5,956 nt of DNA, from assembly GCA_040757115.1 (NCBI GenBank), contig JBFLYA010000226.1:1-5956 (forward strand), in the 5' to 3' direction. The stretch comes from a bacterium (GTDB taxonomy: Bacteria; UBA9089; CG2-30-40-21; SBAY01). Position numbers and translations under genes: made by a program. Below, one piece after another: positions 266 to 5,956 of the stretch (the stretch's first letter is position 1; each line of letters starts with the position of its first letter). The notes under the pieces were generated by a model. That model was not told the origin of the DNA and did not search any database. It saw nothing but the letters and a program-made list of their open reading frames with translations.

Positions 266-1117
266 TTACTTAACTACAACTACTGGACAGGGGGTATGAC
301 CAATGACCTCTTCAGTTACACTGCCCATAAGGACTCTTTTGAGTCCTGTCCTGCCGTGACTACCCATAAAAATAACATCCACTTTTTCATTTTTTGCTAA
401 TTCTGTGATGACTTTATACGCCTCACCTTCTCTGACAAAGGTTACTACCTTAATGCCATCTGCTTCTGCCTTTTCCTTCACTTCATCAACAAAACCTTTG
501 GCTTGTTGAATGAGGGTTTCTGCCACCTCTGGAGCTTCGCCATAAAATTCAGTCGGAACATCCACCACAGATACGACCTTCAATTCCCTATGGTATGATT
601 TTGTAAAAGATATAGCCCTTTCTGTCGCTCCCTGACTACATTTGGAGCCATCAGTAGCAAGAAGGACATTTTCCCATCCTATGACAGTATCTCCTGGAAT
701 TACCAGCACATCCTTCTGAGTGTGACCTATAATACGGGCAGTAACACTGCCAACCAATATTCGCTCCAGTCGCCGTAGTCCCCTTCTTCCTACAACTATC
801 AAATCGTAGTTTTCACTTTTGGCTAAATCAACAACCCGTTCATATATCTCACCTTCTTCGCAAATAGTCTTAATTGATACCCCTTCGGTTTTTGCTAATT
901 CATCAGCTTGAGATAAGGCATCCTGATATGGTTTTTTCATAGAGCCCATAATATCTCCCACACTAACTAAATCAAGATCGCCTGTATATGGTGGGACAAC
1001 AGAAACAACCGTTATCTCACACCCTCCCTTCTGAACGAACTTGAATGATTCTTTTAGAGCATGCAAACTTGTTTCTGAACCATCAATTGCCACCAGTATT
1101 TTTTTATATCTTAACAT
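266..1117 (-). CDS. Universal stress protein, tandem UspA domains
   Basis: This is a cytoplasmic 283-residue protein made of two UspA folds. Domain 1 covers about residues 3-141 and domain 2 about 147-283. Each starts with the typical strand and conserved Asp (ILVAIDGS, D12; VLLATDGS, D156). Each ends with the full ATP-binding motif G-x2-G-x9-G-S: G110/G113/G123-S124 and G252/G255/G265-S266. Both halves are therefore predicted to bind nucleotide, unlike tandem Usps where one half is degenerate. Members of this family help cells through starvation, oxidative or respiratory stress, but the exact role is rarely known. The ATG at 1117 is supported by AAGGAGGT (1126-1133) with an 8-nt spacer, and a strong promoter lies upstream. 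The gene is divergent from the TauE-like permease; Usps are often found beside anion transporters, so a link is plausible but inferred. Family assignment is very secure. Confidence 0.96.
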   Translation of the reverse strand: MLRYKKILVAIDGSETSLHALKESFKFVQKGGCEITVVSVVPPYTGDLDLVSVGDIMGSMKKPYQDALSQADELAKTEGVSIKTICEEGEIYERVVDLAKSENYDLIVVGRRGLRRLERILVGSVTARIIGHTQKDVLVIPGDTVIGWENVLLATDGSKCSQGATERAISFTKSYHRELKVVSVVDVPTEFYGEAPEVAETLIQQAKGFVDEVKEKAEADGIKVVTFVREGEAYKVITELAKNEKVDVIFMGSHGRTGLKRVLMGSVTEEVIGHTPCPVVVVK

Positions 1118-1166
1118 CTTCGTTAACCTCCTTCTTCAATTCGCCATCCACAAATTTCCTGCATTT

Positions 1167-1195
1167 ATTATATGCTTTCTTTCTTAAAAAGTCAA
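1167..1195 (-). promoter_or_regulatory. Sigma70 promoter of the stress protein gene
   Basis: Read on the minus strand, TTGACT (1195-1190), a 17-bp spacer and a perfect TATAAT (1172-1167) precede the stress protein gene. The start site would be near 1160, giving a leader of about 43 nt that contains the strong AAGGAGGT ribosome binding site at 1126-1133. Confidence 0.85.
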
Positions 1196-1213
1196 GGGGA
1201 AATTAATAGGAGG

Positions 1214-1269
1214 CAGATTTTCGCAGATTATCAGATAAGAATTAAAATAAAAATCCTGCGAAAAATCTG
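1214..1269. promoter_or_regulatory. Imperfect inverted repeat between divergent promoters
   Basis: CAGATTTTCGCAG (1214-1226) is mirrored by CTGCGAAAAATCTG (1256-1269), a 13-bp match with one bulged A and a 29-nt centre. The arms end 18 nt from the -35 box of the leftward promoter and 17 nt from that of the rightward promoter, so the repeat is centred between them. This fits a shared operator. However, the words GCAGATT and TCTGCG also resemble the periodic elements elsewhere in the spacers, so it could equally be two repeat fossils in opposite orientation. Confidence 0.4.
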
Positions 1270-1286
1270 GTCCCAGTAATTTTCCC

Positions 1287-1315
1287 TTGACAAATACCTC
1301 TGAGAATGCTAAACT
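1287..1315 (+). promoter_or_regulatory. Sigma70 promoter of the TauE-like operon
   Basis: TTGACA (1287-1292) is followed by a 17-bp spacer and TAAACT (1310-1315), with an extended -10 TGC just before it (1307-1309). Transcription would start near 1322. That leaves an unusually long leader of about 175 nt before the TTG start at 1498, occupied by two periodic repeats. Confidence 0.8.
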
Positions 1316-1360
1316 ATTTTCGTTTTAAATCAAACTATTTCCTGGAGTATTTATAATAGC

Positions 1361-1399
1361 ACACGGATGACACAGATTTAAACCGATTCTCGCTGATTT
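1361..1399. repeat. Periodic repeat, GAT every 9-10 nt
   Basis: Four degenerate units (CACGGATGA, CACAGATTTA, AACCGATTCT, CGCTGATTT) place GAT at 1366, 1375, 1385 and 1395. It lies in the leader of the permease operon. A similar element in opposite orientation follows at 1429-1463, so the two could partly fold on each other in RNA. Confidence 0.6.
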
Positions 1400-1428
1400 C
1401 TTTCTCTTTATTCTCTCTTCTGTTTTGT

Positions 1429-1463
1429 ATCCGCAAATATCTGCATCATCTGCGTTATCAGCG
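1429..1463. repeat. Periodic repeat, ATCNGC every 9-10 nt
   Basis: ATCCGC, ATCTGC, ATCTGC and ATCAGC begin at 1429, 1439, 1448 and 1457. It is the complementary-orientation counterpart of the 1361-1399 element and ends about 22 nt before the permease ribosome binding site. Confidence 0.6.
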
Positions 1464-1484
1464 TGTTATTATTTTCTTGATTTT

Positions 1485-1493
1485 AAAGGAGAG
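1485..1493 (+). promoter_or_regulatory. Ribosome binding site that sets a TTG start
   Basis: The AAAGGAGAG at 1485-1493 sits 4 nt (6 nt from its AAGGAG core) before TTG 1498-1500. The only earlier in-frame start, TTG at 1477, lies upstream of this site and has no purine-rich ribosome binding site of its own, since GTTATTATTTTC precedes it. Translation from 1498 is therefore preferred. Confidence 0.8.
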
Positions 1494-1497
1494 TAAA

Positions 1498-2445
1498 TTG
1501 AAGGTTGCAAAGGCATTAAAGGTAGGTATATCACTGATAGTTTTAATAATTACAGCGGTAACCGTATGGGCATCAACAGGAGTGGAAGTAGCAAATGCTA
1601 ATGTGGTCTGGTGGATATGGCCATTGTCGTTATTCATTTTTACCTTTCTCCTTGGTATTGTAGCAGTTCTTGGGGGTGTAGGTGGTGGAGTATTATATGT
1701 GCCGATTGTCAGCGGTTTTTTCCCTTTTCATCTTGATTTTGTCAGAGCTGCTGGCCTTTTTGTAGCACTGGCTAGTTCGCTTGCCGCAGGACCTGGTCTG
1801 CTTAAAAGAAATCTGGCTAATCTTCGTTTAGCATTACCAGTGGCGTTAATTGCTTCATCTGCCGCTATTGTCGGGGCTATGCTTGGACTTGCACTACCAA
1901 CAAATATTGTCCAACTCTTACTGGGTATTACCATTATCTCCATTGTTATCATTATGGTTTTGGCTAAGAAATCAGACTTTCCAGATGTGCCAAAACCCGA
2001 TGCCTTATCGCAAAGCCTGAAAATTATGGGCATCTACCGGGAAGAATCACTTGGAAAAAATGTTGAATGGTGCATCCACCGCACAATGAAAGGATTATCT
2101 ATGTTTATCATTATTGGCATAATGGCAGGTATGTTTGGACTGGGTGCTGGCTGGGCAAATGTGCCAGTTTTAAACCTGATGATGGGCGTTCCGCTTAAAA
2201 TATCCGTGGCTACAAGCTCATTCCTTCTTTCTATCACTGATACATCAGCCGCCTGGATTTATTTGAATGAAGGAGCTGTTTTGCCAATAATTGTTGTGCC
2301 ATCTATTGCCGGAATAATGTGTGGTGCTATGATTGGTGCCCAACTACTTGCAAAAACAAGACCAAGGGTAATTAGATGGATAGTTATTGCCCTTTTACTC
2401 TTTGCCGGAATGAAAGCAGTTCTAAAGGGGCTGGGGATTGGATAA
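1498..2445 (+). CDS. TauE/SafE family membrane permease (sulfite/organosulfonate exporter type)
   Basis: This is a polytopic inner-membrane protein of 315 residues from the TTG at 1498; an open frame continues back to 1477 but lacks a ribosome binding site. Residues 1-34 look like a signal-anchor or cleavable signal (basic start, hydrophobic 9-25, then WAS and ANA). The TauE/SafE fold follows as two repeated halves. The first has the glycine-rich GGVGGG (59-64) then YVP. A hydrophilic loop spans about 157-200. The second half has GLGAGWANVPVLN (214-226). About eight membrane helices are likely. Known relatives move sulfite, sulfoacetate or related anions, or are linked to taurine and sulfolactate use; substrate cannot be read from sequence. 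The downstream small membrane protein is probably in the same operon. The transporter resembles, from memory, permeases of sulfate- and metal-reducing bacteria that have a similar small partner. Family is secure, substrate is not. Confidence 0.93.
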   Translation: MKVAKALKVGISLIVLIITAVTVWASTGVEVANANVVWWIWPLSLFIFTFLLGIVAVLGGVGGGVLYVPIVSGFFPFHLDFVRAAGLFVALASSLAAGPGLLKRNLANLRLALPVALIASSAAIVGAMLGLALPTNIVQLLLGITIISIVIIMVLAKKSDFPDVPKPDALSQSLKIMGIYREESLGKNVEWCIHRTMKGLSMFIIIGIMAGMFGLGAGWANVPVLNLMMGVPLKISVATSSFLLSITDTSAAWIYLNEGAVLPIIVVPSIAGIMCGAMIGAQLLAKTRPRVIRWIVIALLLFAGMKAVLKGLGIG

Positions 2446-2458
2446 TTAAGTCCAATCT

Positions 2459-2472
2459 GCCCCACCTGGGGC
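2459..2472. repeat. Short GC hairpin between the two membrane genes
   Basis: GCCCC-ACCT-GGGGC forms a perfect 5-bp stem with a 4-nt loop in the 49-nt gap between the permease and the small membrane protein. There is no T-run after it, so it is unlikely to terminate transcription. It might tune the ratio of the two products by affecting mRNA stability. Confidence 0.4.
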
Positions 2473-2494
2473 TAAATTAATCAGAAGGAAATAT

Positions 2495-2914
2495 ATGAAT
2501 AGTAATAAAACCAAAACATCAGAAGAACAAATAGCCTATGCTAATGTATTAAATGTAGCCATGTGGACAGGACTGTCAATTTTGGTAGTTACCTTCATCG
2601 TTTATCTATCAGGGGTATTGCCCACTTTTATCCCGATTGAAGATATGCCTAAATACTGGGGTATGGCATCAAAAGATTTTATACATCACTTTCAGGCTCC
2701 TACAGGCTGGGGATGGTTAGCAATGGTAGGGAAAGGAGACTATCTGACTTTTGTAGGTATAGCCCTCCTTGCAGGGCTTACAGTCTTATGTTATCTGGTG
2801 ATATTACCTATTCTCATGAGAAAAAAGGATATTCCCTATGTGGTAATAGCAATTTTTGAGGTTGCTGTTTTAGTCTTAGCCGCAAGTGGAATCTTAAAAT
2901 CAGGAGGGCACTAA
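2495..2914 (+). CDS. Small three-helix membrane protein, partner of the TauE-like permease
   Basis: The protein is 139 residues. Three hydrophobic segments are visible at about 20-42, 83-107 and 113-134. Between helices 1 and 2 lies a 40-residue loop rich in aromatic and Pro/Gly residues (43-82, with PKYWGM and APTGWGWL). No catalytic motif or signal peptide is seen. AGAAGGAA (2483-2490) precedes the ATG with a 4-nt spacer. It starts 49 nt after the permease stop on the same strand, so the two are likely co-transcribed. TauE/SafE genes are often followed by a small DUF1634 membrane protein. This one holds the same place, but I cannot confirm that it belongs to DUF1634. I recall similar proteins with the W-rich loop beside TauE-like genes in anaerobic bacteria. 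A role as accessory subunit or stabiliser of the permease is inference. Confidence 0.85.
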   Translation: MNSNKTKTSEEQIAYANVLNVAMWTGLSILVVTFIVYLSGVLPTFIPIEDMPKYWGMASKDFIHHFQAPTGWGWLAMVGKGDYLTFVGIALLAGLTVLCYLVILPILMRKKDIPYVVIAIFEVAVLVLAASGILKSGGH

Positions 2915-3040: not shown

Positions 3041-3052
3041 GGTAACCGTTCA
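3041..3052 (-). repeat. TGAACGGTTACC motif copy
   Basis: On the minus strand this reads TGAACGGTTACC, differing by two bases from the TGAATAGTTACC at 3255-3266. It appears to be a third member of the 11-12 nt motif found beside both CTTCGTG elements. Confidence 0.4.
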
Positions 3053-3243: not shown

Positions 3244-3302
3244 TGAATAATTACTGAATAGTTACCATATTTTTTCTTCGTGGTCTTCGTGCCCTTCGTG
3301 GT
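3244..3302 (+). repeat. TGAATAGTTAC plus triple CTTCGTG element (copy 1)
   Basis: TGAATAATTAC and TGAATAGTTAC stand in tandem (3244-3254, 3255-3265). After ten bases come three 9-nt units, CTTCGTGGT, CTTCGTGCC and CTTCGTGGT (3276-3302). The same two modules occur at 4383-4419 with their CTTCGTG units on the opposite strand. The two copies thus bracket the truncated sigma54 activator gene. Confidence 0.75.
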
Positions 3303-3335: not shown

Positions 3336-4433
3336 CTACTTCTCTTTTTCCTTCTGTAACTTCCTCCACAGAGATACCCTATCGATACCCAGAATTTGTG
3401 CTGCCTGGGTCTGATTATTCCCTACCTCATTTAATACCCATTGGATATAATCTGTCTCTTGCTCCTTGAGGGTTGGTATCCTCCCTTCCTTTTTTCTGAA
3501 TGTTCTAACGCTCAAACCTTTCAGATCTTCTGGAAGATGACTAACCTCGAGGACATTTCCACTGGCAAGGGCAACCCCTCGCTCAATGATGTTTTCCAAT
3601 TCCCGAATATTCCCAGGGAAGTCATACTCTCTTAATAAGGCAAGCACATCTTCGGATATTCCACTTATCTCCTTCTTCATTAAGAGAGAGTATTTTTTCA
3701 GAAAGTAATAGCTTAAAAGCACAAGGTCATCCTTCCTTTCTGAAAGCGGGGGCAGATGAAAGGAAAGGACATTTAAGCGATAATACAGGTCCTGCCTGAA
3801 TTGCCCATCTTTTATGGATTCCTGGATGTTTCTATTTGTAGCCGCAATAAATCGGACATCCACCTTTATTGGCTTTGTAGAGCCAAGTCTTAAGACATCC
3901 TTTTCCTGAATAACCCTCAATAGTTTTACCTGCATAGAGGGAAGCATCTCGGTTATCTCATCTAAGAATAGCGTTCCGCCGGATGCCATTTCAATTAGCC
4001 CCTTCTTCATCGCTTGAGCATCTGTAAATGCACCCTTCTCATAACCAAACAACTCACTATTGAGGAGGCTTTCTGGGAAGGCACCACAGTTTATGGCAAA
4101 AAATGCTCCATTTGCGCGAAGGCTGTTAAAGTGGATATACTTAGCTAATAATTCCTTGCCTGTTCCGGTTTCACCGCTTATCAATACATTAGAGTCGGTT
4201 GGAGCAATCTGTTTGGCGGTGTTAAGTAGTCTTTGCATTGCTGGATCCTGGGTGATTATTTTAACCCTGCCCTGGAGGTTCTCCACCTGCTCCCGCAGCA
4301 ACTTATTCTCCTTTTTAAGATTTACCTTTTCTATCGCTTCCTTGACTACCTGTCTAATCTCGTCTAATTTGAATGGTTTAGCGTAACTATTCACCACGAA
4401 GAGCACGAAGGACACGAAGATGTTACAGAACAA
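3336..4433 (-). CDS. NtrC-type sigma54 activator, receiver domain lost (truncated response regulator)
   Basis: The 365-residue product keeps a full AAA+ activator domain: Walker A GETGTGKE (87-94), sigma54-contact loop GAFTDA (134-139, usually GAFTGA), Walker B GGTLFLDE (152-159), sensor I ATNRN (198-202), arginine-finger region FRQDLYYRLN (212-221) and sensor II FPGNIRELEN (272-281). A C-terminal Fis-type helix-turn-helix (about 324-360) should bind DNA. Family members of this type usually run to about 450-470 residues with a 120-residue receiver. Here only the receiver end survives: AKPFKLDEI (18-26, with the conserved Lys-Pro) and helix 5. The phospho-acceptor Asp is gone. Residues 1-17 come mostly from an intergenic repeat. 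The open frame begins at TTG 4433 with no clear ribosome binding site and a stop three codons upstream, so the true start is uncertain; in-frame GTGs at 4394-4414 are alternatives. It may be a pseudogene or an unregulated activator. Confidence 0.85.
   Translation of the reverse strand: MFCNIFVSFVLFVVNSYAKPFKLDEIRQVVKEAIEKVNLKKENKLLREQVENLQGRVKIITQDPAMQRLLNTAKQIAPTDSNVLISGETGTGKELLAKYIHFNSLRANGAFFAINCGAFPESLLNSELFGYEKGAFTDAQAMKKGLIEMASGGTLFLDEITEMLPSMQVKLLRVIQEKDVLRLGSTKPIKVDVRFIAATNRNIQESIKDGQFRQDLYYRLNVLSFHLPPLSERKDDLVLLSYYFLKKYSLLMKKEISGISEDVLALLREYDFPGNIRELENIIERGVALASGNVLEVSHLPEDLKGLSVRTFRKKEGRIPTLKEQETDYIQWVLNEVGNNQTQAAQILGIDRVSLWRKLQKEKEK
4383..4419 (-). repeat. TGAATAGTTAC plus triple CTTCGTG element (copy 2) inside the activator 5' end
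   Basis: Plus-strand units ACCACGAAG, AGCACGAAG and GACACGAAG (4393-4419) adjoin GTAACTATTCA (4383-4393). Read on the minus strand they are three CTTCGTG units followed by TGAATAGTTAC, the modules of copy 1. Because the unit is nine bases, it stays open as three codons, here encoding Phe-Val-X three times. The element ends exactly one codon before the Ala-Lys-Pro-Phe of the receiver remnant. Confidence 0.8.
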
Positions 4434-4455
4434 ATCTCTTTATGCCTTTATTTAT

Positions 4456-4488
4456 CCCTACAAAAATATCGCCTACAAAATTGTAGGG
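4456..4488. repeat. CCTACAA palindrome at the ATPase 3' end
   Basis: CCCTACAA (4456-4463) and CCTACAA (4472-4478) are both complementary to TTGTAGGG (4481-4488), giving two alternative hairpins. The 16-nt palindrome 4472-4487 encodes the last residues and the TAG stop of the minus-strand ATPase. It could act as a 3' mRNA hairpin; no good T-run follows on the minus strand (GGGATAAATAAAGG), so it is a poor intrinsic terminator. Confidence 0.6.
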
Positions 4489-5651
4489 GAGTATCTCTTC
4501 TTTAACCAGAGTTTAAAAATAGGGTCAGTGAACTCGTATAAGCCCTTATCCTGTTTTAAAAGAATGCCTTTATCTATGAAATATTCGATATATCGGCTTA
4601 TAAGATTAGAATTGCTTTTGGTTGTCTGACATATCTCTTTTGGAGTATGAAGGTTATGCACAGCCATTGCACAAATTATGCCTTTTTCCTTATCGCTGAA
4701 GGACTTAAATTCCTCAAAAAAGAGTATATCGCCTTCTTGAGCAAGAAAATCTCCGAATGCCTTTTGCACCAGTTCCTGGTTTATTATCTTCTCTCCTGTT
4801 CTGTTCAATTCCCTTCCAATAAATTGGACATAAAAGGGTATGCCTTTGGTGAGCTTATACAACTCTTCCAGTGCCTCTTCCTTTATCTCACCCTGTATAT
4901 TCCGTATCATCAAAGCTCTGACCACTGAAATGTCAAAAGGGCCGATATGCCTTATTACAAACTGCCTGTAAAAAGCCGCAGATGGGGAAAGCACTGCGAC
5001 ATCCATCGTTCTTCTTATAGAACCCGATACACAGAGGATAGTTCTGGTCAAGTCTTCCTGGATAGTCCTTATTTTCTTGATGATGCCTTCACCGAGTTTT
5101 GTTCCGTTTTTTACATCCATAATTGAAGGGAATTCATCCAGGATTAAGACCAATCTCAGGTTAAGTTCCTCAGCAAGTCTTTCAGCAAATTCAAAGACTT
5201 TTTTCACCAGAAGATTTATATCCATCTCCCCTTTTTTGCCTGCGGCCAGTGAAATTTCAATATCTTCAAAGATACTTATCTTAACATCAATCGTCTTCAG
5301 AAAATCAAAAAACTTTGTTGCCGGGACCTTGAGGATATGTGCTATCTTATACTTTAAAGAGAGTCTCTTTTTCACAGCTTCAATAATAGAGATAGTAATC
5401 TGGTTGCAGAGGTCAACAGCGGTATTTTCAATAATATCCCAGAGTGAAAAATAGACAGCAACAATATCGTCTCTTTGGTTTAATCTTCTCGCCACTTCCT
5501 TGAGGATAGAGGTTTTACCAATTCTCCTTGGTCCAACCAGGGCATATCCCATTCTTACTTTCTCATCCGTGAGGGTTTGAAGCATTTCTTCAAGGATATC
5601 TTCTCGATCAACAAAATCTTCCTCTGTTGCTGGCTGTAGTGTAAAACTCAT
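4473..5651 (-). CDS. AAA/STAND-type ATPase with C-terminal winged helix (archaeal ATPase_2-like)
   Basis: The predicted cytoplasmic protein has 392 residues. It opens with the F-x-x-R-E signature of this P-loop group (FVDRE, 13-17). Walker A GPRRIGKTS (40-48), Walker B LVLILDE (167-173) and a sensor strand ILCVSGS (205-211) follow. A helical lid lies at about 225-310. A winged helix (about 320-380) ends in FTDPIFKLWLKKRY, the DP-x4-W segment common in these proteins. Many relatives carry a DUF234 nuclease-like domain after that motif; here the protein stops at once, its last residues (PTIL) being encoded by a palindromic repeat, so it could be natural or clipped. The biological role of these ATPases is largely unknown; links to mobile elements or conflict systems are often suggested. 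The ATG at 5651 has AAAAGGAG (5660-5667) with an 8-nt spacer and a consensus promoter. The truncated sigma54 activator follows 39 nt downstream on the same strand. Confidence 0.9.
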   Translation of the reverse strand: MSFTLQPATEEDFVDREDILEEMLQTLTDEKVRMGYALVGPRRIGKTSILKEVARRLNQRDDIVAVYFSLWDIIENTAVDLCNQITISIIEAVKKRLSLKYKIAHILKVPATKFFDFLKTIDVKISIFEDIEISLAAGKKGEMDINLLVKKVFEFAERLAEELNLRLVLILDEFPSIMDVKNGTKLGEGIIKKIRTIQEDLTRTILCVSGSIRRTMDVAVLSPSAAFYRQFVIRHIGPFDISVVRALMIRNIQGEIKEEALEELYKLTKGIPFYVQFIGRELNRTGEKIINQELVQKAFGDFLAQEGDILFFEEFKSFSDKEKGIICAMAVHNLHTPKEICQTTKSNSNLISRYIEYFIDKGILLKQDKGLYEFTDPIFKLWLKKRYSPTIL

Positions 5652-5751
5652 CTATGATACTCCTTTTTTAACAAAAGTGCTTTATGTCCTGACGCAATTG
5701 ACAACTTCGGAACAGGTGATATTTTACAGGTTACCAATCTGCCCATTCTTA

Positions 5752-5780
5752 ATTATATACCCTTGTGAGGCTATTGTCAA
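5752..5780 (-). promoter_or_regulatory. Perfect-consensus sigma70 promoter of the ATPase gene
   Basis: The minus strand reads TTGACA (5780-5775), exactly 17 bp, then TATAAT (5757-5752), identical to consensus in both boxes. Transcription would begin near 5745, giving a leader of about 94 nt. Such a promoter predicts strong constitutive expression unless a repressor acts. Confidence 0.88.
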
Positions 5781-5956
5781 GCATTCTTTTCAGAACGGGT
5801 GTATGTAAAATTTGTGGGTAACTTTTAACACCTCTATTTTTATCAATTTCCTCCAAAGAGCAAAATGCAAAAAGCAAATATAAAAATTACATATCAAAAT
5901 GTAAAATTATCTCTTTCCTTTCAGCGTTAAAATACTTGAAGCAAAGATATTACCAA
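5781..5956. other. AT-rich region upstream of the ATPase promoter
   Basis: No coding region can be supported. It contains the TTGTGGGTAA word (5812-5821) shared with 69-78 and an A-rich periodic piece. The region is cut by the window edge, so a gene beginning beyond 5956 cannot be assessed. Confidence 0.5.
5861..5916. repeat. A-rich periodic element (GCAAAAN / TCAAAAT words)
   Basis: The run contains GCAAAATGCAAAAAGCAAAT and later ATCAAAATGTAAAAT, giving short A-tracts roughly every 7-9 nt. A small stem TTACAT-ATCAAA-ATGTAA lies at 5887-5904. It resembles low-complexity intergenic repeats that accompany the other elements here, and phased A-tracts upstream of a strong promoter could bend DNA. 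Confidence 0.45.

Follow-up and report, generated by a model that had tools for sequence, protein, structure and literature searches.

A sigma54-dependent response regulator that has probably lost its receiver and partner kinase at the end of a mobile GxxExxY cassette

That mobile elements truncate genes is well established. In NtrC1 and DctD, the receiver is inhibitory and its removal gives constitutive activity. LuxO without its receiver (R domain) likewise shows constitutive activity (PMC4878744). Elements of the IS66 family generate 8-bp target duplications and have ends beginning with GTAAGCG (PMC11946415). In the literature library searched, GxxExxY turned up in a virus genome paper and, as a mention in passing, in one other, in neither case in the title or abstract, a search on PDDEXK_3 with mobile found nothing, and a search on the CACGAAGG repeat found nothing relevant.

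Here, we analyzed a window of 5,956 nucleotides (the whole stretch of DNA under study, contig C226) from a 4.3-Mb genome assembled in 462 contigs (G000) and compared it with G001, hereafter the congener, the sole genome of the genus for comparison. The window encodes an activator resembling the NtrC/AtoC-type regulators, with an AAA+ domain and a Fis-type helix-turn-helix (HTH) of the same class, from which the receiver is missing as in the constitutive laboratory deletions. Unlike those deletions (LuxO, NtrC1/DctD), the loss would be a natural one, caused by a mobile element, and would have taken the kinase too. We propose, with a probability of about 80%, that this gene is a decapitated response regulator, in which insertion of a cassette and subsequent illegitimate recombination cost the receiver and the kinase, leaving an ATPase gene upstream and, if the product is translated, an internal TTG as its start. 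We are confident of the structural history of the locus, and the odds between a constitutive activator and a fresh relic as its outcome are about even. The gene is made up as follows.

3336-4433, minus strand: open reading frame of the sigma54 activator, 365 aa, TTG start
3336-4382, minus strand: leftover of a sigma54-dependent response regulator, comprising the last receiver residues (AKPF, helix 5), linker, AAA+ and Fis-type HTH (congener identity and Pfam domains)

A Pfam search of the activator (3336-4433, minus strand) revealed Sigma54_activat, AAA_lid_14, and the Fis-type HTH_8, and no receiver domain. The protein is a bEBP by its domains (PF00158, E = 5.9e-71; PF02954, E = 2.6e-11), and it lacks the N-terminal receiver with the phosphorylation Asp that characterizes the NtrC family. 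The initial annotation of this DNA had already recognized that only the end of a receiver was left, and alignment with orthologues bears this out. The activator is 98% identical in nucleotides to G001:C150:1-820, where the congener gene extends into a full receiver, starts with an ATG preceded by AGGAG, and has a histidine kinase immediately upstream. Moreover, among 44 orthologues at at least 55% identity, the receiver is in frame in 42/42 of those having upstream sequence, the two that stop at a contig edge being left out of this count. A search of the window's own assembly for the missing receiver and kinase returned the window only, and neither was found. Homology to the intact congener gene ends at 4382, adjoining the terminal G of the element described below. 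On the evidence of sequence, the receiver is lost at the repeat edge, the activator is now uncoupled from phosphorylation, and the partner kinase is also gone.

The remaining activator shows no decay. It differs from the congener gene by 12 synonymous and 4 nonsynonymous changes, with a dN/dS of 0.09 that mainly records the period preceding truncation, its amino-acid change does not exceed that in the nearby TauE gene, and its 348 codons are free of stops, frameshifts, and surplus amino-acid changes. Long decay is thus excluded, but a recent death is compatible with these figures. The sigma54-contact motif (window 4017-4034, minus strand) reads GAFTDA in place of GAFTGA, as it does in the congener.

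Codons 1 to 17 of the activator read LFCNIFVSFVLFVVNSY (the TTG start counted as M), followed by AKPFKLDEIRQVVKEA..., and they run, as initially annotated, through CTTCGTG 9-mers and TGAATAGTTAC. The edge lies at 4383, directly before Ala-Lys-Pro-Phe. These modules had been taken for an intergenic repeat; they belong instead to one terminus of a transposable cassette, which is recognizable by inverted repeats at its ends, 8-bp target duplications, and GxxExxY gene remnants.

4383-4451, minus strand: end of a cassette with IS66-type terminal inverted repeats; homology to other copies stops at 4448-4451 (dispersed copies and alignment of full copies)
4383-4419: 37-bp terminal inverted repeat GTAACTATTCACCACGAAGAGCACGAAGGACACGAAG, holding three CTTCGTG 9-mers and TGAATAGTTAC (inverted copy pairs 185-430 bp apart)
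4423-4449, minus strand: putative GxxExxY gene remnant, last codons KGIKRFVL-stop (translation; TIGR04256 matches at the same place in other copies)
3255-3302, plus strand: second module set, inverted and differently ordered, left over from related elements (a further end lies at 3042)

The element end at the gene spans 66 to 69 bp (4383-4448/4451). Some 40 copies of it are scattered over the genome, and in three the 66 bp match at 100%. A count of its 19-base terminus GTAACTATTCANCACNAAG across the 4.3 Mb gives 102 versus 0 for a reversed-pattern control, which, together with the 66-bp copies, shows that the repeat is real, far beyond chance. Full element copies are bounded by GTAACTATTCA..TGAATAGTTAC, and the 37-bp ends (GTAACTATTCACCACGAAG..) form inverted pairs. 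A perfect 8-bp target duplication flanks 10 of the 48 complete copies, versus 0.22 expected and with other lengths near background, a count that excludes the window copy, which has one end only. The cassette interiors are GxxExxY gene remnants (alignment of copies, TIGR04256). The TIGR04256 HMM scores above cut-off in the intact cassette L221 and in several deleted element copies, the 8-codon remnant in the window being too short for the HMM on its own, and an intact GxxExxY gene is present in two 459-bp copies whose end is of the related CACCGCAGAG type.

An IS66 transposase gene (PF03050) lies at G000:C277 between GTAACCGTTCAGG..CCTGAACGGTTAC. This copy, which is flanked by GTAACCGTTCAGGTA and ACCTGAACGGTTAC ends and whose transposase has two stops, has only the terminal ~11 to 15 bp in common with the cassette. 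Like the IS66 family, the cassette has a terminal inverted repeat starting with GTAA, 8-bp target duplications, and ends matching those of the genome's IS66 transposase copy; unlike it, the cassette starts with GTAACTA or GTAACCG rather than GTAAGCG and contains no transposase but a GxxExxY gene, complete or in remnants. Compared with the GxxExxY family (TIGR04256), whose full gene is found in 459-bp cassettes with related ends, the window would keep the last codons only. Judged by these sequence features, the window repeat is a truncated, nonautonomous mobile cassette with IS66-type ends and not a spacer repeat. Since GTAA/TTAC ends were missing around most of the GxxExxY genes inspected in other genera, this claim is confined to the present genus, in which the very common CACGAAG/CTTCGTG repeat represents the terminus of transposable GxxExxY cassettes rather than a tandem repeat. 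Read-through open reading frames starting in such repeats are, therefore, annotation hazards. Matches to TIGR04256 number 68 in the window's own genome, 59 in the congener, and 0 to 20 in other members of the phylum. In the own genome, GxxExxY genes lie in 292- to 459-bp cassettes with IS66-type ends at L221:1445-1903, L222:1445-1903, L241, L245, and L246, the last three with clean 8-bp duplications.

Upstream of the element end, the window departs from the congener once more.

4452-5679, minus strand: ATPase block at the site of the missing kinase and receiver, with an ATPase_2 family gene at 4473-5651 (96% to G001:C47:1607-2834)
5671-5679: the other breakpoint, 9-bp ACAAAAGTG, present both beside the ATPase in C47 and at the old locus in C150
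5671-5796, minus strand: flank that originally lay upstream of the kinase-regulator operon (98.4% to G001:C150:2898-3023)

On both sides of the ATPase block, order and orientation are collinear with G001:C150, 2.08 kb of the congener (821-2897) corresponding to 1.29 kb in the window. The congener counterpart of the block sits at another locus (C47) and not at the regulator locus C150, and close ATPase copies are single in both genomes. Positions 2889-2899 of the congener hold an IS66-type element end, TGAACGCTTAC, at the same point as the window breakpoint, so that the difference is bordered by element ends on both sides. Synonymous differences affect 36/392 codons of the ATPase versus 28/622 of the neighboring genes (p = 0.003), with a dS of 0.169 for the ATPase copies versus 0.070 and 0.076 for the neighboring genes. 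This higher divergence makes simple one-to-one orthology improbable, and the window and congener copies are probably not orthologues of that kind.

We propose a model in which the ancestral operon would have consisted of a gene for a histidine kinase and, behind it, one for an NtrC-type regulator, beside TauE/Usp genes. A GxxExxY cassette with IS66-type ends would have entered the receiver-coding region at GGTTTAGC. We infer this insertion because the element terminus falls exactly at 4383, and we only infer its exact position since the cassette's second end and the target duplication are gone. Illegitimate recombination would then have deleted what remained of the cassette together with the entire kinase and about 101 codons of the receiver, so that the ATPase came to lie directly upstream; the ATPase would either have been brought in by the deletion event or have stood upstream of the kinase beforehand. 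The end state of this rearrangement is read directly from the two genomes, and the sequence of events is reconstructed from it. This would be a recent natural case, seen between two congeneric species, in which a mobile element stripped a two-component system of its sensing half and left the output half intact.

A misjoin of the contig within the 66-bp repeat, with the true gene intact elsewhere, would mimic such a structure. The junction does lie in a repeat having identical copies elsewhere and the assembly is fragmented, but the kinase and receiver are nowhere in it, the sequence linking the ATPase to the flank expected upstream of the missing kinase is single copy, and the next contig, C253, carries on the expected synteny: the right end of the window and the start of C253 have an exact 25-bp overlap within a repeat, and C253 goes on with the Usp-TauE genes, as next in the congener. 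Given this nonrepeat join and this synteny, we consider a misjoin most unlikely. (The assembly break itself coincides with another dispersed repeat, at window 5797-5956 and G000:C253:1-204, contigs C226 and C253.) Even less credible, to the point of being hardly tenable, is recombination between the two 9-mer arrays of the window (4395-4420 and 3275-3302), although they have the 9-mer and TGAATAGTTAC modules in common (TGAATAGTTAC at 3255-3265 and, on the minus strand, at 4393-4383). The initial annotation was right that the modules recur at 3255-3302, but 3275-3302 and 4393-4420 are mutually inverted (28 nt, 89% complementary) and differ in module order, so that recombination would have produced an inversion and not a deletion. 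Moreover, what was lost is sequence from the far side of the array, where an unrelated ATPase now stands. The orientation of the arrays and the congener comparison thus contradict a deletion driven by the 9-mers; what survives of the repeat-driven deletion first suggested is the loss of the receiver at the repeat edge and the uncoupling from phosphorylation. The proposed decapitation by a cassette also bears on where translation of the remnant would begin, for which two sites come into question.

4431-4433, minus strand: TTG read as the start in the initial annotation, weak Shine-Dalgarno (start-site energy)
4299-4313, minus strand: alternative internal start, AAGGAG (4313-4308), 6 nt, TTG (4301-4299) (duplex energy)

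Translation of the repeat from TTG 4433, giving the activator a new 17-residue N terminus as first proposed, is improbable. The frame is open, and the site lies 40 nt behind the ATPase stop, where translational coupling is conceivable, but its Shine-Dalgarno (-2.9 kcal/mol, 1-nt spacing) is weak compared with those of genes in the same window and with that of the internal TTG (-8.0 kcal/mol). Nor is the open frame special, being the one open frame of the three that lead outward from the element end. Among 123 outward element ends, the median open reading frame was 14 aa, and the two other long read-through frames (L024 and L015) enter genes having their own ATG; this survey speaks against a habit of element ends becoming N termini. 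A start at TTG 4301 yields 321 aa (linker, AAA+, and HTH) with no repeat-encoded residues. The congener codon at this position is TTA and outgroups carry other residues there. If the activator is translated, it more probably starts at the internal TTG 4301 than at TTG 4433 within the repeat, and the repeat, therefore, probably supplies no residues. The TauE gene of the window likewise probably starts, as read from its sequence, with a TTG (1498) behind AAAGGAG.

The outcome of the proposed decapitation may equally well be nothing at all. A fresh pseudogene has the same structural history and differs in outcome only: the activator, having lost its Shine-Dalgarno, start codon, receiver, and kinase, would not be made in useful amounts and would switch nothing on. 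We put this slightly short of an even chance. The native AGGAG start site and the kinase are gone, the Shine-Dalgarno at TTG 4433 is poor, and a weak terminator-like hairpin closes the ATPase (4487-4472, at its stop); set against this are the 348 undamaged codons, the strong internal start at 4301, and a strong promoter, the old upstream flank having kept a sigma70 promoter with a 12/12 match to TTGACA-17-TATAAT at 5780-5752 (promoter scan). This promoter would read through the ATPase, past the weak hairpin, toward the receiver-less activator. The promoter region of the operon (window 5739-5790) resembles the end of a livF-like gene (3' end, G001:C47:327-378), with 94% identity across 52 bp, and the promoter may have originated in, or overlap with, the remnant of a gene. 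By analogy with the NtrC1/DctD/LuxO-type regulators having an inhibitory receiver, the decapitated product would be constitutive. That the cassette turned a two-component system into a one-protein constitutive sigma54 activator, with the TTG behind AAGGAG rescuing translation and the Usp-TauE operon permanently on, is a rather improbable outcome.

A target for such an activator would be at hand. Many Nitrospirota and some Deltaproteobacteria have a conserved TauE-Usp, kinase-regulator, Usp-DUF1634-TauE cluster (L136-L163 neighborhoods; window 266-2914), and the genes flanking the window regulator are of the same kinds (Usp, TauE/SafE, and DUF1634). The cluster is probably an uncharacterized sigma54 two-component system controlling TauE/SafE exporters. 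Inside the window, a search for sigma54 promoters found none exceeding chance. Outside it, a sigma54 promoter, TGGCATAAATCTTGCT, precedes Usp by about 30 bp at G001:C150:3297-3312 and at G000:C253:382, divergent from the kinase-regulator operon, so that a target is available in both genomes. The sigma54 promoter of the neighboring Usp-TauE operon, still present, is thus the probable candidate target of the activator. Sites similar to TGGCATAAATCTTGCT occur in L161 and L162.
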